DNA from: a virus
Reading direction: 5' to 3' (one strand)
IMG/VR virus record: IMGVR_UViG_3300031654_000029
Span: 1-20,007 of that record
DNA: 20,007 bases
Numbering within the stretch: position 1 is the stretch's first letter; each line of letters begins with the position of its first letter. Below the pieces are notes generated by a model that was not told the origin of the DNA, searched no databases, and worked only from the letters and a program-made list of their open reading frames with translations. Shown here piece after piece: positions 1,510 to 13,198 of this stretch. The translations under genes and the position numbers were made by a program.

Positions 1510-1547
1510 TAATTAAATAACTAATCGCTGACTCAAGAAGCGAGAGG

Positions 1548-1585
1548 CGACTTTGACAGGAGAAATCCTGCGGAGTCGTTTTTTT
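1548..1585 (+). terminator. Intrinsic terminator after HNH gene
   Basis: A stem built from CGACTTTG with CGGAGTCG and CAGGA with TCCTG, separated by one bulged A, is closed by a GAAA tetraloop and followed by seven Ts at 1579-1585. It ends the HNH unit. No clear promoter lies between it and the next gene at 1599, so that gene needs read-through or a start site I do not recognise. An upstream GACTC at 1529-1533 could pair with the terminator's 3' arm as an alternative fold. Confidence 0.8.
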
Positions 1586-1598
1586 ATTAGGAAAGAAA

Positions 1599-1811
1599 AT
1601 GGTTATAGCAACTGAGAGAAATACCTGGCCTCTTTGGCAATGTCTAAAAGCTGAATCGCTGGCGATGCTGATTCAATATCAGTGGAAGCACTACGGGACC
1701 AAGCTTGACCTATTGGTTGACCGATATAAAGAACTGGAATCCCTTCCAGAGATAGACCGTTTGATGCGGGAGAGACCGCGCTATAGGGGAAAGGTGTGGT
1801 TTGGTGGCTAA
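1599..1811 (+). CDS. Hypothetical protein, 70 aa
   Basis: The ATG follows an AGGAAAG ribosome site at good distance and lies 13 bases after the terminator's T-run. The product is mostly helical, contains several tryptophans in its first third (NTWPLWQCL, YQWKHYG) and ends in a basic stretch (RERPRYRGKVWFGG). No known motif is seen. It overlaps the start of the next gene by 11 bases, so it is probably the first gene of the small regulatory block at 1599-2488. Function unknown. Confidence 0.6.
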   Translation: MVIATERNTWPLWQCLKAESLAMLIQYQWKHYGTKLDLLVDRYKELESLPEIDRLMRERPRYRGKVWFGG

Positions 1812-2070
1812 GAAAGACCCGACACCACGCTATCGTCAATACCCGGATAGAGGTTGTTTTCTTTATCCGTCTTGTCTTTCTTGTCCTCTCCCAAAATGCT
1901 TTTTTGAGTTAACCTTAGCTGAGAAACGCCGTCTACTTGGTAGAGGTAAGAGCGATGAGATAATAGAGCGGCTTGCTAAGGGTGAGGATATAGAGGCAAT
2001 TGCCAGGGCTCTTGGTGTCTCGGTAAGAACGATTCAGAGGGCTGTGAAGAGGTATAAGGATGGGGGGTAA
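1801..2070 (+). CDS. Cys4 plus helix-turn-helix DNA-binding protein, 89 aa
   Basis: Two parts are visible. Residues 17-33 carry DRGCFLYPSCLSCPLPKC, a C-x5-C-x2-C-x4-C cluster that could bind zinc or an iron-sulfur cluster. Residues 54-86 are a homeodomain-like helix-turn-helix (IIERLAKGEDIEAIARALG then VSVRTIQRAVKRYK) as in transposase and resolvase DNA-binding domains. A TTG at 1801 or GTG at 1804 can start it; AAAGG at 1790-1794 serves either. It overlaps both neighbours. Its small size, metal-site-plus-HTH make-up and place just before the late promoter suggest a transcription regulator (inference). A small recombinase-like adaptor is the main alternative. Confidence 0.75.
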   Translation: MVAKKDPTPRYRQYPDRGCFLYPSCLSCPLPKCFFELTLAEKRRLLGRGKSDEIIERLAKGEDIEAIARALGVSVRTIQRAVKRYKDGG

Positions 2071-2488
2071 AAGCTGGTATAGCCCTAGAGAGATTAAATT
2101 TACTCGCCAGCAAGTTCTTTGGCTTATTAGAAATCTACCAGCCTTGAGGGAGGGCTCCTGGCCCGCCGAGGCAAGCAGCTATACGGATATTCCTATAGGT
2201 AAGAGGAGTGGTAAGAATAAAGCATACTTTGAGACACCAGCCGAATACGCTGCTGAGGTAGAGTCTAGACTGGAGCGGGCCGGTATAGATGGGCTTATCT
2301 TGGAAGCTATAGAGTGCTGGGACAAAAGTGAGCAATCAATGGCAAGCTATCTGAGACTACCTGCCGAGGTGATAAGGAGTAGGGCGAACATGGCTCTAGG
2401 TTATATATCTGGATGGCGTAGAAAAGTATCATATCGGGATTTTAGAGGGCGCAAAAAATCCGATACTCAGGCTCAAATGTCGGAATAA
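2060..2488 (+). CDS. Putative late-gene regulator, sigma-region-4-like HTH, 142 aa
   Basis: The ATG at 2060 sits inside the end of the previous gene with AAGAGG upstream. Residues 58-90 are helical with a GIDGLILEAIECW segment. Residues 90-120 look like a sigma-region-4 type helix-turn-helix (SEQSMASYLRLPAEVIRSRA then MALGYISGW), followed by a basic tail (WRRKVSYRDFRGRKK). ArpU/RinA activators and Q21-like antiterminators are of similar size, end in such an HTH and lie directly before the late genes. This gene ends one base before the -35 of the promoter at 2490. The role is inferred from shape and position; no diagnostic motif proves it. Confidence 0.6.
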   Translation: MGGKSWYSPREIKFTRQQVLWLIRNLPALREGSWPAEASSYTDIPIGKRSGKNKAYFETPAEYAAEVESRLERAGIDGLILEAIECWDKSEQSMASYLRLPAEVIRSRANMALGYISGWRRKVSYRDFRGRKKSDTQAQMSE

Positions 2489-2489
2489 C

Positions 2490-2518
2490 TTGACAACACT
2501 TTGTGCCTGTGGTATATT
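2490..2518 (+). promoter_or_regulatory. Strong sigma70 promoter, likely late promoter
   Basis: A perfect TTGACA at 2490-2495, a 17-base spacer and TATATT at 2513-2518 with an upstream TG (extended -10). The bases TGTGGTATA are shared with the promoter at 728. The expected start is near 2525. It precedes the zinc ribbon, terminase and all head genes, and is followed almost at once by a terminator. Confidence 0.85.
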
Positions 2519-2542
2519 GACTTATTAGAAGGCTAGAGCTTA

Positions 2543-2571
2543 GACCCAGCAAAAAACGGCTGGGTCTTTTT
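2543..2571 (+). terminator. Intrinsic terminator in late leader
   Basis: GACCCAGC at 2543-2550 pairs perfectly with GCTGGGTC at 2559-2566 around an eight-base A-rich loop, followed by TTTTT. It lies only about 20-45 bases past the predicted start at 2525, so default transcription would make an RNA of about 47 bases. It points in the direction of the late genes and is not preceded by a gene. Confidence 0.85.
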
Positions 2572-2578
2572 AGTTGGT

Positions 2579-2616
2579 AGCCCATCGGGAGGCTTGAAGG
2601 CCGACCCCGGTGGGCT
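2579..2616 (+). promoter_or_regulatory. Long stable hairpin in late leader
   Basis: AGCCCATCGGG at 2579-2589 pairs with CCCGGTGGGCT at 2606-2616: 11 pairs with a single T-G wobble. Inside, GGC at 2591-2593 can pair with GCC at 2600-2602. It has no T-run, so it is not a terminator. It lies between the leader terminator and the ribosome site of the zinc-ribbon gene. It may protect the late mRNA 5' region, be an RNase III target or act in antitermination; which one cannot be told here. Confidence 0.6.
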
Positions 2617-2641
2617 GCTTGTATATACGGGGGAAGTCTAT

Positions 2642-2809
2642 ATGAAAGTATGCCAACATTGTCATAGAGTAAACCCTGATGATACTACGAGATGTATTAA
2701 CTGTGGCCGGTCGGGCTTTGACAAGCTATGGCTAGAACCGCCGTGGCTTGTTGACTTTGTGGCGGAATGGCAAAAACGAGAGAAGGCATTGGGCAGGAAG
2801 CGGGAGTAA
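2642..2809 (+). CDS. Zinc ribbon protein, 55 aa
   Basis: The product starts MKVCQHCHRVNPDD and has a double CxxC site (C4, C7, C18, C21) typical of small zinc ribbons, then a helical, lysine- and arginine-rich C-terminus. The frame is open upstream to about 2594, but that longer start lies in a hairpin and has no ribosome site. The ATG at 2642, after GGGGGAAG, is chosen. It is the first gene of the putative late operon, 15 bases before the small terminase gene. Such proteins in phages may bind nucleic acid or act as adaptors; no specific role can be read. Confidence 0.7.
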   Translation: MKVCQHCHRVNPDDTTRCINCGRSGFDKLWLEPPWLVDFVAEWQKREKALGRKRE

Positions 2810-2824
2810 GGTTGGTGAGTATAT

Positions 2825-3220
2825 ATGGCTAATGGAAAGAATAACGGCAACAACGGCATATCTAAAAAAAGAGAGCGGACAGCACAAAAGATAATCGGAG
2901 CCCTAGGAGAAACTAAGGGACTGTTGACACTGGCAGCTCGCAAGGCTGGCGTATCCTATAGAACTCTAAACCGCTATGCCAATGAGTTCCCCTCTGTGCG
3001 AGAAGCGGTAGAAGAAGCTAAAGAATCAATGGTTGACTTTGCTGAGGGCAAACTGTTTGACAAGATAAGCAAGGGTAACACAGCTTGTATAATCTTTTAC
3101 TTGAAAACGCAGGGTAAATCTAGGGGATACATAGAGAGGCATGAGGTTGGTGGTGAAGGCGGCCATCCTATAGAGGTCTCGGTTATAGAGAAGGTTAAAG
3201 ACTATGGTAGTGGCGACTGA
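2825..3220 (+). CDS. terS: Terminase small subunit, 131 aa
   Basis: It lies directly before the large terminase gene and overlaps it by 17 bases. Residues 15-53 form an N-terminal helix-turn-helix (LLTLAARKAGVSYRTLNRY) as in the HTH-type small terminases. Residues 58-83 form a helical segment (REAVEEAKESMVDFAEGKLF) that in the family drives oligomerisation. The following KGNTACIIFYLKTQGKSRGY is a conserved small-terminase signature. The family recognises the pac or cos site and feeds DNA to the large subunit. Length is usual. Function call is based on motif and position. Confidence 0.88.
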   Translation: MANGKNNGNNGISKKRERTAQKIIGALGETKGLLTLAARKAGVSYRTLNRYANEFPSVREAVEEAKESMVDFAEGKLFDKISKGNTACIIFYLKTQGKSRGYIERHEVGGEGGHPIEVSVIEKVKDYGSGD

Positions 3221-4493
3221 AATCCCCCCCTTCCGTGAGCTAAAAGACGGAAAGCTCACTCTTAATTATCACCCGGGCCAGGTCAGAGCCGATGACAGCA
3301 AGGCTCGGTTTGTGGTTATGCTGTCGGGTACGCAAAGTGGCAAAACATGCTATGGCGTTCACTGGCTATATGATGAGATACAGGGTAAGGGACCGGGCGA
3401 TTACCTGGCAATAACAGCTACCTTCCCTCTTCTGAAGCTCAAGATGCTGCCTGAGTTCCTATATGTCTTTGAGGCACTACTCCACGTGGGTACATTTAGA
3501 GAATCGGACAAGGTGTTTATCTTCCATGATGGGCAGACTAGGGTAATCTTCGGCTCAGCCACTAATCCTGAATCAATAGAGAGTGCTACTGCTAAGGCAG
3601 CCTGGTTAGACGAAGCAGGTCAAAACCAGTTTAAGCGTGAGGCATGGGAAGCCATACAGAGGAGGCTGTCAATCCACCAGGGCAGAGCTTTATTTACCAC
3701 TACCCTATATGGCTTGGGGTGGCTGAAAACAGAGATATACGATAAGTGGCGAGCTGGTGCTCGGGATATAGAGGTCATCCAGTTTGAATCTACTGTAAAT
3801 CCTGCCTTCCCCAGAGAGGAATTTGAGAGGGCTAGGACTGTTATGCCGCGGTGGAAGTTCAATATGTTCTACCGCGGCCAATACGATAAACCGGCTGGGC
3901 TAATCTATGATGCCTTTGATGTAGCTACCTGCAAGATACCCCGCTTTCCTCTCAATGATGAAGCTCACAAACACTGGCCTCGTTTTGTGGGACATGACTT
4001 CGGTGGTGCTAATCCAGCAGCCATGTTCTACGCCCAAGACCCGGCTACCGGCTATTTCTATGCTTACCATGAATACCTACCGGGACCGGGCAGGTCAACC
4101 CATGAGCATGTAGAGGAGTTTAAGAAGATTACGGCTGGCACAAATGTTCTGAAGAGGGCTGGCGGTTCTCACCAAGAAGAGGAGATAAGGGAAGCATATA
4201 GGGCGCACGGCTGGCCGATTCAGGAACCGAAGGTAAGGAGTGTTGAAGCAGGTATTGATAAGGTCTATGCCTTGCATAAACTCAATAAGCTCTTCGTCTT
4301 TAACGACCTCTATGCTTACCTGGATGAGAAGCTGAACTACAGCCGTGAGTTGGATGAAAATTACAATCCGACTGAGGAGATAGAGGACAAGGAGCGCTAT
4401 CATTTGATGGATGCTGAGAGGTATATACTGAGCGACTTTACCCCGGAGACGGTGATTGTGCAGAAGTCCAGGGCACCGAGTAGTTACCTATAG
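3204..4493 (+). CDS. terL: Terminase large subunit, 429 aa
   Basis: This is the DNA-packaging motor. The ATPase half shows Walker A GTQSGKT (residues 42-48), Walker B with the catalytic glutamate in AWLDEAG (133-139) and a coupling-type segment LFTTTLYGLGWLK (163-175). The nuclease half begins at FVGHDFGGANPAAM, with D265 as the first metal ligand of the RNase H-like fold, and ends in RYHLMDAERYI (D403) as a late acidic ligand. Length fits the family. The protein docks on the portal at the prohead, translocates DNA and cuts it. The ATG at 3204 is inside the small-subunit gene, with AAGG upstream. I count AUA as the commonest isoleucine codon here (10 of 20). Confidence in function is very high. 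Confidence 0.96.
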   Translation: MVVATEIPPFRELKDGKLTLNYHPGQVRADDSKARFVVMLSGTQSGKTCYGVHWLYDEIQGKGPGDYLAITATFPLLKLKMLPEFLYVFEALLHVGTFRESDKVFIFHDGQTRVIFGSATNPESIESATAKAAWLDEAGQNQFKREAWEAIQRRLSIHQGRALFTTTLYGLGWLKTEIYDKWRAGARDIEVIQFESTVNPAFPREEFERARTVMPRWKFNMFYRGQYDKPAGLIYDAFDVATCKIPRFPLNDEAHKHWPRFVGHDFGGANPAAMFYAQDPATGYFYAYHEYLPGPGRSTHEHVEEFKKITAGTNVLKRAGGSHQEEEIREAYRAHGWPIQEPKVRSVEAGIDKVYALHKLNKLFVFNDLYAYLDEKLNYSRELDENYNPTEEIEDKERYHLMDAERYILSDFTPETVIVQKSRAPSSYL

Positions 4494-6227: not shown

Positions 6228-6369
6228 ATGGACTAAGGACGATGTCATTAAGAAGTTTCAAGAAGCGATGGCACAGGCGCAGCCAAAGGCAGGGCAAAGA
6301 CCCAATACGCTTCAAACTTTGTTAAGCAAGATTAAAGGAAAACCAGGAGAGGGTGAAGAGACTGTATGA
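6214..6369 (+). CDS. Small basic protein between portal and giant gene, 51 aa
   Basis: This frame could start at a GTG at 6178, but a TTG at 6214 follows a strong GGAGGAG (6203-6209) at ideal spacing and reduces the overlap with the portal gene to 14 bases, so I prefer it. The product (starting MAKVKWTKDDVIKKFQEAMA) is basic and helical in the first half, then rich in Gln, Pro and Lys. The TGA overlaps the ATG of the giant gene (ATGA). Its fixed place between portal and giant protein suggests a partner or chaperone of one of them (inference). No family recognised. Confidence 0.65.
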   Translation: MAKVKWTKDDVIKKFQEAMAQAQPKAGQRPNTLQTLLSKIKGKPGEGEETV

Positions 6370-9300
6370 GCAACGGCATCTCTGATTTACTCAAGAAGTA
6401 TGGCACCAGCCTAGAGCAAACGAGGGCATTGATGCCCAAGCTGACTGAAGCCGTTAAACGACAGCGAGCTATTAAACTTCCAACCTTGCCGACTGTGCCT
6501 CAGTTCTTTACTCCTGAAGAGGCTAAGGATTTAGGCGTTGAGCTTGAGCCTCGTTGGTCATTAAAGGTATCACCGGGGAGAGATGGTCAAGAGCCTTCTT
6601 TCAGCTACATTACACCTACAGGCTGGGAGATAACGCAAGCTGGGCTATACGTCTCGCCTGAAGGAAAGAGATATACCCCAGAGCAGTTGCAGGCGGAGCA
6701 GGAAGAGTATCTTAAATCTCTTGGGAGAATGCCTCCGATGGAGAAGGGCGTGCTTACTCCTGAGCAACTGGGAATAGAGCGAGGTTATAGAATCCCTGAA
6801 GTGCCTCCAGAGCTTGAGGAGATATACGGTAAAGTATTCCCTGAGAGTGATATTAACAATTTATTGCTCTATGCTGAGGCTCAACCAGAAGCCTTTTACA
6901 AGGATATACTGACTATAGGCAGAACTGAGGATACTGAGGAATTACTCGAGAGGATGTTTCCTGAGATAAGACCTGAGCAGCTTGAGGAGTTCTTTGCTCC
7001 TATGGCTGAGGAGCCAATAAAGGAAATCGCTGCTGAATTGCCAGAGACTGAGCCAGAAGCAGTGTTCCTACCAATGATTGGTGTTGTCAGAAAAATGTCT
7101 GCCGGAGAGAAGGAGGCGGCTCCAACATGGGTGAAAGCCTTTGCTTCAGGTTTAGGAGACGTATATAGCTCTGTTGCTGGTGCGGCTAGGTGGCTTGGCT
7201 TTGGCAATATAGGAGAGGGTTTATCAAAGGAGGCTGAGAGATTACATCGAGAATACACATATCCCGATACTTTAGGTGACTTTGAATTCGCTGACCTGCT
7301 CAATCCTGAATTTTATGAAACTAAGATTGTTAGGGCTATCCCGTTTGCCTTATCACTAGCTCCACTGGCTGTAGGCGGTTACTTTGGGGGTGTTGCCATC
7401 GCTAGTGCTGCTGGACTTGGGACGATATGGTCAGCAATTGTTGGTGGTTTCACTGGTGCTGCTTTGAGTCGACCTCTTGAAAGTGCAATGGAAGCTGGCG
7501 GTCAATATGACGATGCCATAGCAAGGGGCAAGACGGAGAAGGAAGCTACAGCAGAAGCCAATGAGGTATTTCGTAATAATATGCTACTAGCCGGTGCTGA
7601 TGCTTGGGAGATAGCTATAGCCTTAGCACCTACTCCCAAGTGGGTGCCAACGGCATTGATTAAGGGTGGATTAGCGAGGACAGTTCAAGTCGCTGGCAAA
7701 ATGGTAATTGTGGGACTGTCTGAAGGTGGGGAGGAAGTCTATCAGGATATGATACAGAGACACGCTAGAGGCGAGGAGTGGCAACTAGACCCTATATCTA
7801 AAGAAGTATTTGCTATCGGTGCCGTTATGGGTATGGGTATGGGGTTAGGTGGTGATGTAATCTCCTCAATAATTAGCAGGTCAAAAGAAGATATGACCCC
7901 TTCACTTAAAAAGGACTTTGACAATGCTGTTTCTGATTTTAAGGAACAAGGATATAGAACTGACCAGGCGGAATTGAAAGCACTGGATGTTATAGCCAAA
8001 ACCCCAGAGGGTGAGAAGGTTGTAAGTGAAGCTATTAAAGAGGTCAAGGCAGAGAAGGAAGCTCCTGAAGTAGCACCTGTTACCCCAGAGGTAACATTAA
8101 CTAAAGAGGAAGCATTAAAATTTGCCAATCCAGAAAAGCCTTATATTGTAGATGAAATCTATGATAAGGGTTTGAGTGTTAATTCTGATGGAACTATGAC
8201 GTTGTATCATGCTACTACAAAGGAGAGGGCACCAGAACTTGTCAAAACTGGTATATTTAGGACGGCAGAAGGTGCTCCCGATGCTTATGGTGTGTATTTT
8301 TCTACGAGTCAAGAAGTAGCTGAAAGTTATGGAGATGGCACTTTGGTCAAAGTTAGAGTTAATCTAAGAGACCTTAATTTAGATGACTCATTCCCTGGCA
8401 GACCCCGAATGGATTTTCAAGTTAATACAAAGAGAGGAATATATAAACCAGTTTCAGTTGAGGTCACAGAACGTGAGGTCAAACCAGCAACCCCCAAAGC
8501 TGAAGCAAAACCTACTGAGGCGGAAATTACTGCACCCCTCCCTGAAGAGGAAGAGGTTAGGCGCCAGCTTAATGAATTACAAAAGATGTCTGAAATCTGG
8601 AGTAAGAAGCTGGCAGATAGGGAAGAGGTCAAGTCTCAGCTTGCGAAGTATGTCAGAGAGAATTTACCTCCAAGTGTCAGGGGTAAATACATAACGGCTG
8701 TAGCTAAGGTCAAGACTGACGCTCAGTTGGAGAGACAAATAGCCAAAGTATCGGAGTTTGCAGAACTCAATGCTCAAAAGACTCTAAAGATAGAAATCAG
8801 AAAGGAAATCAGAAAAGCTAGGGCGAAGATAAAAGACCATATACTCAAGGGTAAGTTTACTCCTGAAGTTCAAAGGCGATTAGATGTTGTCTCTCATAAC
8901 CTTGAACTCGACAGGGATGCAGCCAGAGAGAGGATAGCGGAGAATATCACGGCGTATCAAGAAGGCAAACTCGGCTATGAAGAGATGCTTACTGATAACG
9001 AAATGCTTAACTTTGCCGGTATTGATGGTATGTCCGCAGAGGAACTCGCTAATACACTAGGCTATATCAAAATTCTTGAGTCAAGAGGTAAATCAGAGAG
9101 GCAGGCTAAACAGGAAAAAGCCACAGAGAAAATAAAAGCTACTCGCTCTGATATTAGTAATATCTTAACCGGTGGGAAAGGGTTAAAGACAGGTATCGGA
9201 GCTGTTCCTAGGGGGGAACTGGCAGCTAAAACGGGCTGGTGGGATACCTTTGTTAATTGGCAATATGGTATAGATAATCTGGCTGATAAACTCAGCAAAC

Positions 9301-12300
9301 TAGACCCAACCTCAAAGCCGTATCAAAGTGAGTTGAGTAAGTTTGTGGCTCAGGTTCACAGGGCTACACACAGACAGGTCGCTGGTACTAAAAACGCTTT
9401 CAAGAAGATACAGGACGTGATTCGAGAAACCTATGCAGTAAAGAGCACTCACGATATTAACCAAAGGCTCAATGCTCTGGATGAAGAAGTTAATCTCGGT
9501 GTCTTTGACCTAACCGCAGAATATAGAGCAAATCACCCTGGTGCTACTAATGTTACTGTTAAGATGACACGAGACCAAATGATTGCCAAGTATATGCAGA
9601 TGCGGGACCCCACGCTTAATGATACTTTTACTACGGGCATGGGATGGTCGCAGGATGTAAAGGATGCAGTGGCTAGTAATCTTACGGAGGAGGAAAAGAA
9701 ACTAGCCAGTGCCATATTTGAATTTTACGAAGGTTACTATGATGCTACGAACGAAATCTATCAGGAGTTGTTCAATGTAGACATGCCTCATAATCGTGTC
9801 TATTCTCCAATAAGGAGAGACTTTGAGGCTGAAATAGCTGAGAATATCCTCACAATGCGGGATGCCTCACAGTATGCTTCGGTGCTTAATGGTAGCCTGA
9901 AAGCCAGACAAAGGAATATCAGACCGTTGAGGTTCAATGGTGCTTTAGCGATTCTGTCCAATCATATTCAGCAGATGGAGCACTTCAAAGCATGGGCTAT
10001 CACCATGAGGGATATGCGAAGGGTCTTTGGAAATAAAGAAGTCCGGCAAGCAATAGAGCAATATCATGGCCGGGGAGTGCAAAGGTTAATAGATACCTTC
10101 TTAAACCAGATGGCTAGAGGCGGAATAGAGACAGCAACCACTAACCGAGCTGCCGATTTTCTTAGGAGAAACTTTACTAAATCTATTCTGGCTATTAAGC
10201 CGGTTATTATGTTAAAGCAGATACCCTCACTATTCGGCTATATCTCAGAGATGAATCCAGTGGAGTTCTTCACGGGTATAGCTGACTTCTGGACTAACCC
10301 AGTTGCCCATTTCAAATTCCTACATGCCAATTCAGAAATGTTTAAGGCAAGAATGGAAGCAGGCTTTGAGCGTGATATTCGAGCTGCTATGGAGAAGCAT
10401 GGCAAGCAGCTAATATCGGGGCGGGGGAAGGTTACAGACTGGTTTATGCTTCAAATCAGATTGGGTGATACTTTTGCTGTAACCCAAGGAATGTGGGCGA
10501 AATATAAAGCGGGGCTAAAAGAGGGTTTATCTCAAGAAGATGCTATTGCTGCCGCCGAAGATACTACTGGTAGAACTCAGCCGTCATTTGGTATTGATAC
10601 TCTATCCGCCATTCAAAACGGCGGTTCATTCCTTAAATTGTTGACAATGTTCCAGAACCAGCCGAATAAGTATTTCAGAATGGTTTTTGATAATGCAAGG
10701 AATTTTCACTATGGTAGGGGAAGTAAGGCAAAGGCAGCCTCCACTATACTCTTGGCTTGGGTGGTATTACCAATGATGTTTCAGTATATTGCTGATGCCT
10801 TCCAGTGGAAGCCAGAGAGGCAAGCCCGGGCGGGTATTCTTGGCCCACTTAATTTTATCCTGATTGGTGGGCTGTTGGTTCAATCTATGTGGGGATGGCT
10901 TACTGACCAGCCTTTTGATTATCAGATTAGCCCAGTGGCTCAAACTGGCAGAGACTTACAGATGATATTCCTGAAGGCTAAGAAGCTACTTAATCAAGGA
11001 CTTGACCCCTATAAGGATATTTGCGGAGATGATGTAGCTGCCGTTATAGAGTATCTAGGTAAAGCAACTGGGCAAGTCTTAGGACTACCAACACCCTACT
11101 TTGCTCAACTCTCAAAACTAATACGGCACAAGTTTGCAGCCGGTGAGGAACTTCAAATTAAGGACTTTCTCTTTAGCGAGTGGGCATTAACGCCACCTGA
11201 AAAGACTGCCGAAGAACAGGTTGAGGAACTTAACCTCAAGCTCGGCGAGCCAGAAGAAGGAGTTGAAGATAAGCCTCTAACCGACAAGCCCATACCAGTT
11301 TATGATACCGCAGACTGGTTCAGAGATATAGGCAAGGTGTATGATAACGTATTGCCACAGGACGTGCTTGATGACCCTAATGCCTCAAAGGAAAGCAAGG
11401 CATGGGCGGAATATGAGATAGCTCGGTCTAAGTCTGATATACTGCCTAACACTGCTCTTTACAAGATAAACACTGAGGATAACAGCGATACTATAATCAA
11501 CTATTACCAGCAATGGAAGGCTAGGGAGAAGATAACTAACCTAGCCAAACTAAAGGAATTTGATAAGCTCTATCCGAAAGCCTATCTTGGCAATGTTACG
11601 AGACAGCAGTATAGCTTACTGGTTAAATACTTGGAGGCTGAGGACAAAGATACATTCCTTACGGAACATCCTGAACTCAGAGTAAACCCTAGAGACGAAT
11701 GGTTGAAAGCCAATCCAACTGATAATGCTCGTCTGGCATTAGCGGGGCAAGCAAAGATACTCAGCCTAGAGGCATACAATGAGATTAAAAAACTCATTAA
11801 GGAATTAGATATACCGGATGATGCTATACCTGAGTTTACCCTACCGCCTGAAGGGTCAGTTGAAAATTACTTTAAGTACCAAGACATCATTGAGGAGTTC
11901 AGTGCTAATAGCTGGGAAGCACAACTTCTTATGGCACAGGATAACGACCTCCGTGAGTTCTTAGAACGAGAGCCAATAGAAACGCCTATAACAGCCCTTG
12001 AGTTGAAGATTAAACACCGAGAACTCTTTGACCTATATGATGCTTATGGGGATAAGGATTCGCCACTATACATTGAGGATGATGACGCTAGGGATGAGGC
12101 AAGGGATAAGCTGAGGGCTGACAACTCAGAGTGGGTAGATGATATGAGGCGGATAGAGGCTATTGAACACGAAGCCTCCGACACTATCATTGAATCGTGG
12201 GTAGAACGAGGCAAGTTGGTTGATGAGTTTTCTGGTGGCAGCTCCGAAGTTAAGGTTTGGTTGGTAGACCATAAGAATGTTTGGGATTGGGCATTAGAGC

Positions 12301-12809
12301 AAGAACTACTGACTGATGATGGCAGCGATTGGAATGAACCTGTCCTGCGTATCAATGCTAAATGGCGAGTTGAGGATGATGAATATGATGCCCTTGAGAC
12401 TGATGAAGAACGAACGGATTACCTTGCCTCACACGCTGAATACCATGAGGCTAGATATCGGAGGAAGGCTTATAGCATAGAGGACTTTCCTAAAGACCAG
12501 ATAGAAACGTATGTAGAATACTATACAAGTCCCAAACTGAAAAAGCCAGCAGATTGGAAGTACAAATATTGGTTCGAGGATGACTGGTTCTTAATTGAGC
12601 ACGCTGAGTTTTACAAAACTATGCTGAAGCTGAAGATATGGCAGCCACGAGAGTTAGAAAAAGTGCCAACTCGCAAAGTCTTTGAGTTTTACAAGACATG
12701 GTATGATTTACCGCTGGGTAAGCCAAGAAGGTTCTTTGAAGAGACTCATCCCGATTTGGATATGTGGCTACACTTGAAATTCGGGACTAAGTTGGAAAGT
12801 GAGAGATGA
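6366..12809 (+). CDS. Giant polyvalent virion protein with ART-like and LPD38-like domains, 2147 aa
   Basis: Residues 1-320 are acidic, Pro/Glu-rich and repetitive (PEEAK, PEQL, PEVPPELEE). Hydrophobic segments lie near 327-368 (APLAVGGYFGGVAIASAAG), 481-503, 1458-1479 and 1489-1512. Residues about 600-710 look like an ADP-ribosyltransferase: TMTLYHATT (Y614, H615), then GVYFSTSQEVAESYGDG around Y644, then a strand LVKVRVNLRDL. The usual third glutamate is not evident. Residues 850-1600 are mainly helical and resemble the LPD38 region of large polyvalent phage proteins (IKPVIMLKQIPSLFGYISE). The C-terminus (1700-2147) is acidic with repeated H(P/A)E-type motifs. Polyvalent proteins are described as effector arrays delivered with phage DNA. 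Sitting between portal and scaffold, with membrane-type segments, it probably enters the virion and is ejected (inference). Confidence 0.85.
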   Translation: MSNGISDLLKKYGTSLEQTRALMPKLTEAVKRQRAIKLPTLPTVPQFFTPEEAKDLGVELEPRWSLKVSPGRDGQEPSFSYITPTGWEITQAGLYVSPEGKRYTPEQLQAEQEEYLKSLGRMPPMEKGVLTPEQLGIERGYRIPEVPPELEEIYGKVFPESDINNLLLYAEAQPEAFYKDILTIGRTEDTEELLERMFPEIRPEQLEEFFAPMAEEPIKEIAAELPETEPEAVFLPMIGVVRKMSAGEKEAAPTWVKAFASGLGDVYSSVAGAARWLGFGNIGEGLSKEAERLHREYTYPDTLGDFEFADLLNPEFYETKIVRAIPFALSLAPLAVGGYFGGVAIASAAGLGTIWSAIVGGFTGAALSRPLESAMEAGGQYDDAIARGKTEKEATAEANEVFRNNMLLAGADAWEIAIALAPTPKWVPTALIKGGLARTVQVAGKMVIVGLSEGGEEVYQDMIQRHARGEEWQLDPISKEVFAIGAVMGMGMGLGGDVISSIISRSKEDMTPSLKKDFDNAVSDFKEQGYRTDQAELKALDVIAKTPEGEKVVSEAIKEVKAEKEAPEVAPVTPEVTLTKEEALKFANPEKPYIVDEIYDKGLSVNSDGTMTLYHATTKERAPELVKTGIFRTAEGAPDAYGVYFSTSQEVAESYGDGTLVKVRVNLRDLNLDDSFPGRPRMDFQVNTKRGIYKPVSVEVTEREVKPATPKAEAKPTEAEITAPLPEEEEVRRQLNELQKMSEIWSKKLADREEVKSQLAKYVRENLPPSVRGKYITAVAKVKTDAQLERQIAKVSEFAELNAQKTLKIEIRKEIRKARAKIKDHILKGKFTPEVQRRLDVVSHNLELDRDAARERIAENITAYQEGKLGYEEMLTDNEMLNFAGIDGMSAEELANTLGYIKILESRGKSERQAKQEKATEKIKATRSDISNILTGGKGLKTGIGAVPRGELAAKTGWWDTFVNWQYGIDNLADKLSKLDPTSKPYQSELSKFVAQVHRATHRQVAGTKNAFKKIQDVIRETYAVKSTHDINQRLNALDEEVNLGVFDLTAEYRANHPGATNVTVKMTRDQMIAKYMQMRDPTLNDTFTTGMGWSQDVKDAVASNLTEEEKKLASAIFEFYEGYYDATNEIYQELFNVDMPHNRVYSPIRRDFEAEIAENILTMRDASQYASVLNGSLKARQRNIRPLRFNGALAILSNHIQQMEHFKAWAITMRDMRRVFGNKEVRQAIEQYHGRGVQRLIDTFLNQMARGGIETATTNRAADFLRRNFTKSILAIKPVIMLKQIPSLFGYISEMNPVEFFTGIADFWTNPVAHFKFLHANSEMFKARMEAGFERDIRAAMEKHGKQLISGRGKVTDWFMLQIRLGDTFAVTQGMWAKYKAGLKEGLSQEDAIAAAEDTTGRTQPSFGIDTLSAIQNGGSFLKLLTMFQNQPNKYFRMVFDNARNFHYGRGSKAKAASTILLAWVVLPMMFQYIADAFQWKPERQARAGILGPLNFILIGGLLVQSMWGWLTDQPFDYQISPVAQTGRDLQMIFLKAKKLLNQGLDPYKDICGDDVAAVIEYLGKATGQVLGLPTPYFAQLSKLIRHKFAAGEELQIKDFLFSEWALTPPEKTAEEQVEELNLKLGEPEEGVEDKPLTDKPIPVYDTADWFRDIGKVYDNVLPQDVLDDPNASKESKAWAEYEIARSKSDILPNTALYKINTEDNSDTIINYYQQWKAREKITNLAKLKEFDKLYPKAYLGNVTRQQYSLLVKYLEAEDKDTFLTEHPELRVNPRDEWLKANPTDNARLALAGQAKILSLEAYNEIKKLIKELDIPDDAIPEFTLPPEGSVENYFKYQDIIEEFSANSWEAQLLMAQDNDLREFLEREPIETPITALELKIKHRELFDLYDAYGDKDSPLYIEDDDARDEARDKLRADNSEWVDDMRRIEAIEHEASDTIIESWVERGKLVDEFSGGSSEVKVWLVDHKNVWDWALEQELLTDDGSDWNEPVLRINAKWRVEDDEYDALETDEERTDYLASHAEYHEARYRRKAYSIEDFPKDQIETYVEYYTSPKLKKPADWKYKYWFEDDWFLIEHAEFYKTMLKLKIWQPRELEKVPTRKVFEFYKTWYDLPLGKPRRFFEETHPDLDMWLHLKFGTKLESER

Positions 12810-12828: not shown

Positions 12829-12978
12829 TCAGGGAGCCGGGAACGCGGTGGGTAGATAGGCAAAACGTTCGGGGACAATACCGAGTAGAGAGGCAATGAA
12901 ATATAATACAAACAGAGCGATAAAAAAGCCAAATATGGCATTACCTACCCATGGTTCCCATTGCTTCTTCGGTTTCAT
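12829..12978 (-). CDS. Small single-helix membrane protein on minus strand, 49 aa
   Basis: Reading the minus strand from the ATG at 12976-12978 gives MKPKKQWEPWVGNAIFGFFI followed by ALFVLYFIASLLGIVPERFA and a short Pro-rich end, with TGA at 12829-12831. A positive N-terminus precedes one hydrophobic helix (about residues 11-35), then a short outer tail, suggesting an inner-membrane protein with its N-terminus inside. It is too short for many gene finders. It has a TTGACA/TATTAT promoter of its own, with only six bases between -10 and ATG. It is the only minus-strand gene seen, which makes it look like a moron expressed apart from the late operon. Superinfection exclusion or holin-type action is possible but unproven. 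Confidence 0.65.
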   Translation of the reverse strand: MKPKKQWEPWVGNAIFGFFIALFVLYFIASLLGIVPERFAYLPTAFPAP

Positions 12979-12984
12979 ACCTTA

Positions 12985-13012
12985 ATAATAAATATTTTTT
13001 AGACTTTGTCAA
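12985..13012 (-). promoter_or_regulatory. Minus-strand promoter, leaderless start for membrane protein
   Basis: On the minus strand a perfect TTGACA (13012 down to 13007) is followed by 16 bases and TATTAT (12990 down to 12985). Six bases (TAAGGT) then separate the -10 from the ATG at 12978, so transcription should begin at or beside the start codon. The arrangement copies that at 751-765 (TATAAT-ATAGGT-ATG). Confidence 0.72.
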
Positions 13013-13045
13013 GAGGGGGAGAGCAATGAAAAGATAGTTCTAATA

Positions 13046-13120
13046 TGCGGGTAGGACAAATGGTAAGTCAGCCAGTCTCATAAGCTGGAGAAGGGGGTTC
13101 AATTCCCCCACCCGCTACCA
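13046..13120 (+). tRNA. tRNA with CAU anticodon (Met or Ile2), CCA encoded
   Basis: The 3' half is canonical: anticodon stem CCAGT/GCTGG around loop CTCATAA (anticodon CAT), short variable loop, T arm GGGGG-TTCAATT-CCCCC, acceptor strand ACCCGCT, discriminator A and an encoded CCA. The acceptor stem GCGGGT/ACCCGC pairs over six bases, with T facing T at the outer 1-72 position. The D arm is weak (GAC/GTC, three pairs) with the normal GG in its loop, and position 8 is A rather than T. The anticodon fits elongator methionine, or Ile2 if modified to lysidine to read AUA. No three G-C pairs of an initiator anticodon stem are present. Confidence 0.85.
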
Positions 13121-13152
13121 AAGGTTAAACAGATACCCGATGCCATAAACAC

Positions 13153-13198
13153 GGCTTTTTGTATGCCTGTGAAATCTTACATCACAGGCTTTTTGTAT
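13153..13198 (+). repeat. Direct 12-bp repeat around a terminator
   Basis: GGCTTTTTGTAT occurs at 13153-13164 and again at 13187-13198. The second copy is the 3' arm end and T-run of the terminator at 13165-13194. The first copy follows a weak potential stem (GCC/GGC) and looks like a duplicated or decayed terminator end. Confidence 0.6.
13165..13194 (+). terminator. Intrinsic terminator between tRNA and scaffold gene
   Basis: GCCTGTGA at 13165-13172 pairs perfectly with TCACAGGC at 13182-13189 around a nine-base loop, followed by five Ts. It stands after the tRNA and just before the scaffold ribosome site. No plus-strand promoter is evident between it and the scaffold gene, so capsid expression would need read-through or antitermination from upstream. 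Confidence 0.8.

Follow-up and report, generated by a model that had tools for sequence, protein, structure and literature searches.

A small gene, a strong promoter and a terminator conserved ahead of the packaging genes of uncultured phages: a candidate Q-type late switch

Organisation of the early-late boundary

The window analysed here is an entire viral fragment of 20,007 bases (IMG/VR record IMGVR_UViG_3300031654_000029, positions 1-20,007). It starts with small genes of early type, followed by a small regulatory operon (1599-2488) and a geneless stretch with a promoter and a terminator (2490-2571); behind this leader come the genes of the small and large terminase subunits, a portal-like gene, the gene of a 2147-aa protein, and the capsid and other genes (Table 1). 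An earlier note, made from the sequence alone, had placed all late genes beyond the leader, and this holds for the visible ones, as small terminase, large terminase and capsid are recognised downstream. The 2147-aa open reading frame (6366-12809) lies between the portal-like and capsid genes and has relatives in two of the contigs described below (L032 and L105). In the early region, an HNH endonuclease gene has its own strong promoter (TTGTAA-17-TATAAT, with TG) and terminator (together 728-1587); the HNH part may be an insertion, because separate homologs of part of the protein occur in L105 and L111.

Table 1. Features at and around the leader of the window
Feature	Position	Strand	Basis
Intrinsic terminator upstream of the regulator operon	1544..1587	+	-21.8 kcal/mol
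Small conserved partner gene in the regulator operon, 70 aa	1599..1811	+	homologs in other contigs
Cys4-HTH protein	1801..2070	+	HTH_23, E 1.5e-9
Candidate Q-like late regulator, 142 aa, new protein family	2060..2488	+	homologs; predicted sigma-R4-like fold
Late promoter, pR'-like, TTGACA-17-TATATT with TG extension	2490..2518	+	exact TTGACA in 13/13 homologous contigs
Predicted terminated leader RNA, about 47 nt, geneless	2525..2571	+	start inferred 7 nt past the -10 box
Intrinsic terminator, tR'-like	2542..2571	+	-16.3 kcal/mol, then TTTT
Second strong hairpin, poor in U-tract	2577..2618	+	-30.7 kcal/mol
Small zinc-ribbon protein, first gene behind the leader	2642..2809	+	Zn_Ribbon_1, E 2.9e-5, just below its cut-off
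Terminase small subunit	2825..3220	+	phrog_309, E 2.7e-9
Terminase large subunit	3204..4493	+	recognised in the window annotation

Of 33 promoter-like (sigma70-like) sites in the window, the promoter of the leader scores highest: it matches at 11 of 12 positions, has a 17-nt spacer and a TG before the -10 box, and only 1 nt separates it from the stop codon of gene 2060-2488. The terminator stem (2542-2567, AGACCCAGC/GCTGGGTCT) is among the clearest in the window. If transcription starts near position 2525, the stem would occupy about +17 to +42 and termination would leave an RNA of about 47 bases, as the earlier note had predicted; its description of a promoter that fires into an intrinsic terminator with no gene between the two is confirmed. 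The note had also counted a second late promoter between 2572 and 2642 as an argument against the proposed switch; none with at least 9 of 12 matches was found there.

Such an arrangement is rare by chance. In 100 dinucleotide shuffles of 20 kb, searched on both strands for a promoter followed by a terminator within 60 nt, promoters with 11 of 12 matches occurred 0.23 times on average (0.01 times with the TG) and never together with a terminator; even with promoters of at least 10 of 12 matches the pair was found only 0.05 times per 20 kb. The window leader folds better than all of 200 shuffles (z = -4.5). No Rfam match was obtained near the leader at E-values up to 1, and a structured-RNA family at this position was rejected on that ground. 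The hairpin that follows the terminator had been overlooked in the earlier note; it is the stronger of the two and is perhaps a back-up terminator. Second hairpins after the terminator were also seen in L105, L112, L113 and L117 when the sequences were read directly.

Conservation across viral contigs

A terminase profile gathered about 80 viral loci. L032, which has a terminase 60% identical to that of the window, carries a diverged homolog of ORF 2060-2488, and 14 nt past the stop codon of this homolog there is a TTGACA-17-TATACT promoter, followed by a terminator. Further loci were collected with profiles made from the window and L032 pair and then from five members, and each locus was read; in total, 12 distinct viral contigs besides the window encode a homolog of the 2060-2488 protein (the 13 contigs are the window, L032, L104, L105, L106, L111, L112, L113, L116, L117, L118, L119 and L122). 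Alignments were needed for this, as single-query searches with the window protein and the L032 protein detected no new relatives; a last scan with all 13 members yielded no further ones. In the Peregrinibacteria MAG, the sole genome with a related terminase contig, the regulator family was not seen, which proves little.

The comparison with related phages, which the earlier note had suggested, shows that gene and promoter are conserved together: an exact TTGACA promoter is present downstream of the family gene in 13/13 contigs, which represent fewer than 13 independent events because some contigs are related, those of the L111-L117 group especially. The -35 box is perfect in all 13 promoters and the -10 boxes mostly match at 4-6 of 6 positions. 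In the window, L105, L032, L111, L116, L122, L106 and L113 the promoter follows the family gene directly, and in L105, L111 and L116 the -35 box even overlaps its stop codon; elsewhere the promoter is kept behind inserted genes, namely a methyltransferase (L104), HNH genes (L118, L119) or small ORFs (L112, L117). An intrinsic terminator between the promoter and the packaging or late genes, sometimes behind an inserted gene, is found in 12 of the 13 contigs; the exception is L118, with a long leader stem that has no canonical U-tract. The automatic scan misses or misplaces the leader in L117, L118, L119 and L122, and these four rest on reading the sequence.

When 109 other gene ends of the same contigs were scanned, only three promoter-terminator pairs were detected and all three were the same leaders behind an inserted gene, leaving 0/106 at independent gene ends. 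The loci were found through the 2060-2488 family and the test is one-sided: where the family gene is present, the leader is present. The terminator stems differ in sequence between the contigs and yet persist, which suggests selection for termination. Judged from these comparisons of sequence, the regulatory cassette is real and conserved, with promoter, terminator and gene order tied to a single protein family.

The terminases of L104, L105 and L106 gave no match to the window terminase in a pairwise search; all four share the broad phrog_2 profile, and for this reason the idea that they are unrelated was dropped. They appear to be only distantly related to that of the window.

Some related terminases are preceded by promoter-terminator leaders with no recognisable 2060-2488 homolog (L040, 601-678; L050, 2892-2984; L081, 175-299 and 497-640), and these leaders are possibly served by other regulators with the same plan. 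L081 (550-580) and L103 (1590-1620), otherwise different phages, have a leader element in common (ATACCGATGA...TTTTCTCATAA) downstream of a strong promoter.

The candidate regulator

The earlier note had left it undecided whether the Cys4-HTH protein or the product of gene 2060-2488 would be the antiterminator. The Cys4-HTH protein is real, as judged from its HTH_23 match, but it is much less conserved: clear homologs are present only in L111 and L112 (L113, L116 and L117 begin too late to judge), and it was rejected as the main regulator on these grounds. The comparison favours the 2060-2488 protein, which is the better candidate because its gene always accompanies the leader in the 13 contigs. 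The 70-aa product of the first gene of the operon is widely conserved: L104, L111, L112, L119 and L032 have a homolog ahead of the regulator gene, and L105 and L122 a weaker one. A terminator upstream of the regulator operon is present in L105, L032 and L111 as well as in the window, and in weaker form in L104, L112 and L114; it could serve to delay the regulator.

Searches of Pfam, NCBIfam and the PDB sequences gave no match to the 2060-2488 family, PHROGs gave only weak ones, and tblastn searches with three different members against 50,697 phage records found no match. Direct profile comparison with Q and RinA, as proposed in the earlier note, showed no homology (hhalign probability under 1% for lambda Q, QuuD and 80alpha RinA). 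The expectation that the system would be distant from known Q families was thus borne out.

For the window member, AlphaFold gave a model with a mean pLDDT of 76 overall and about 90 or more in a helical core (residues 61-110). This core matches sigma region 4 (Foldseek probability 0.90-0.94; SigC with an rmsd of 1.3 over 53 columns) at E-values of about 0.5-3, which are not significant alone. Sigma region 4, sigma factors, KorA and Q21 are the best matches of the model among solved structures, a consistent theme at non-significant E-values; the matches to the Q21 chains are weak (TM 0.37-0.43, E not significant) and are among the highest-TM weak matches. The HTH resembling sigma region 4 that the earlier note had read in this protein finds support in the predicted structure but not in Pfam. 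It is also not universal in the family, since the L105-type subfamily lacks about 11 HTH residues and has a Cys-rich N-terminus instead; the predicted model of this type has no structural match, sigma region 4 included. In the family alignment, the C-terminal HTH segment (window, L104, L111-L113) is seemingly traded for the Cys-rich N-terminus (L105, L106, L032, L118, L122), and L119 has the Cys-rich N-terminus together with part of the HTH segment.

A possible late switch and competing readings

Phage lambda holds its late genes off until the Q protein lets RNA polymerase through. The genetic order in lambda is Q, pR', tR', with the promoter 42 nt past the Q stop codon, and the window has a similar order: the candidate regulator gene comes first, a strong promoter follows it directly, and the late genes begin only behind an intrinsic terminator that this promoter reads into. 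The two differ in several respects: the window protein is unrelated to Q by hhalign, the leader has about 47 nt in the window and about 190 in lambda, packaging genes come first in the window and lysis genes in lambda, and nothing recognisable as a -10-like pause element is present in the window leader. Q proteins require a promoter binding element and a -10-like pause element (PMC6606751). The best match to the latter in the window leader is 2/6, too little to count as found; L117, L118 and L122 have 5/6 and the family mean is 2.7 compared with 1.7 expected, and a lambdoid pause element common to the family was rejected as weak overall and absent in the window. Promoter spacers, compared by eye only, contain TGTGcc-TGTGgt in the window and no motif common to the homologs; even the spacers of the window and L104, the closest homologs, are alike in little. 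Q21, which itself has a fold resembling sigma region 4 (PMC6606751), is of similar size to the window protein and shares with its model a helical core of this kind, but there is no sequence or Pfam match, the structural E-values are non-significant, and the 6-bp direct-repeat binding element of Q21 was not found in the window. AlpA of Pseudomonas aeruginosa, which has no homology to Q, acts as an antiterminator: it loads at a site inside the promoter and enables polymerase to read through an intrinsic terminator a short way downstream (PMC7969949). By analogy, a protein unrelated to Q could do the job of Q from a promoter-embedded site; AlpA is, however, a host cell-death regulator and not a phage late regulator.

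In layout the system works like a Q system, while its protein is outside the known Q families. We consider it very likely that the leader has a late-switch role of whatever kind. The consensus -35 boxes speak against regulation at the step of initiation, and for a consensus promoter that reads into a terminator the best explanation is control at a step past initiation; we infer that the 2060-2488 protein acts at the leader, on termination and not on initiation. Polymerase would start early in infection at the strong promoter, probably with no need of an activator, and stop at the terminator about 47 nt on, so that a short RNA but no virion protein is made. The regulator would build up from the early operon and load, in a way that is likewise conjectural, onto polymerase at or near the promoter; loaded polymerase would then pass the terminator, the second hairpin and later terminators, and the packaging, portal and capsid genes would be expressed. 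On the sequence, model and analogy evidence we favour, with moderate confidence, a Q-type late switch with antitermination by the 2060-2488 protein, and it is to a similar degree probable that this is a new, previously unrecognised protein family doing the job of Q. Of the lambda-like Q/pR'/tR' plan read by the earlier note, the layout is strongly supported by the conserved promoters and terminators and the empty control gene ends; antitermination in place of activation remains the conjectural part.

Activation is the most serious of the competing readings, if an unlikely one: the 2060-2488 protein would be an activator of the late promoter of RinA/ArpU/Ltr type and the terminator a modest barrier, or a block to read-through from upstream, and not a control point. 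Ltr regulators are described as proteins of about 140 aa, encoded at the end of the early cluster and directly upstream of the promoter they control (PMC13123087), and the RinA, Alt and Ltr proteins of Gram-positive phages resemble the window protein in position, size and the proposed control of packaging genes; its predicted fold, a generic sigma-region-4 or HTH fold, would suit an activator too. Moreover, five phages have an intrinsic terminator behind the late regulator gene and ahead of terS or whichever gene comes next: the RinA phages 80alpha, phinm1 and IPLA88, Lactobacillus phage PLE2, and TP901-1 (L127, 2221-2408 in 80alpha; L131, L128, L129 and L132); none was found after the late regulator of D6E. 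As these phages are described as controlled by activators, the layout alone is no proof of antitermination, and our confidence was lowered. However, perfect -35 and mostly good -10 boxes are unlike an activator-dependent promoter, and there is no profile match to RinA and no NCBIfam or Pfam family match. TP901-1 Alt is described as binding repeats at about -76 to -32, whereas upstream direct repeats of Ltr type are missing from most of the 13 promoters or occur there at about the chance level, with one imperfect pair in the window; they were rejected as a family feature for this inconsistency.

Control might also lie in the RNA, with the leader or its hairpins bound by the 2060-2488 protein or a host factor (as in put RNA or riboswitch-like antitermination) and the promoter DNA unrecognised. 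In six leaders (L111-L114, L116 and L032) a further hairpin rich in G+C does lie between the promoter and the terminator, and the window and L104, the closest pair, seem to resemble each other more at the transcript start (TTAGNAGG ... AGAGCTT) than in the promoter spacer. No such extra hairpin, besides the terminator itself, and no Rfam match were seen in the window leader, and among 5 consensus pairs of the extra hairpin there are 0 compensatory changes, so that covariation gives it no backing; we regard RNA-based control as improbable. Still less credible is that the terminator merely ends early transcription, or that the promoter makes a small regulatory RNA, with the late genes controlled by neither. 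A terminator at the early-late boundary is ordinary and an RNA of 47-100 nt could be an sRNA, but a plain terminator does not need a strong promoter 25-50 nt before it, and one is present in 13/13 contigs; the leader RNA is, unlike an sRNA, unconserved apart from its hairpins, and the stretch up to position 2642 offers the late genes no other promoter of at least 9 of 12 matches.

To our knowledge, few antiterminator protein families are known, and the mechanism has been worked out mostly in E. coli phages. The cassette is compact, with about 140 codons of gene and about 50-100 nt of leader, and its presence in uncultured phages would add a new case, open to testing, of late control that evolved independently; it could also help to identify late regulators when uncultured phage genomes are annotated. 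The terminators after RinA/Alt regulator genes raise the question of whether those activators, too, work on termination, as they might; open-access literature on RinA together with antitermination or a terminator contained nothing relevant. More tentatively, we suggest a new family of late antiterminators that is unrelated to lambda Q, Q21 and AlpA, loads without a lambdoid sigma-dependent pause, comprises subfamilies with an HTH or a Cys-rich N-terminus, and belongs to a cassette that passes between phages whose packaging genes differ; by the same reasoning, activators of RinA/Alt type may antiterminate as well.

The late region of the window has some further features. Upstream of the capsid gene, a tRNA-Met gene is followed by an intrinsic terminator (13165-13189, within 13046-13190), which late polymerase would have to pass. 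On the minus strand, a strong promoter (TTGACA-16-TATTAT, within 12870-13012) apparently serves a small membrane-like ORF that runs opposite to the late genes. L002, a contig from another sample that is 99.8% identical, starts exactly at window position 2578, which falls between the two hairpins of the leader, and stops at 13022, immediately ahead of the tRNA; these ends are possible module exchange points, a genome end or assembly breaks.
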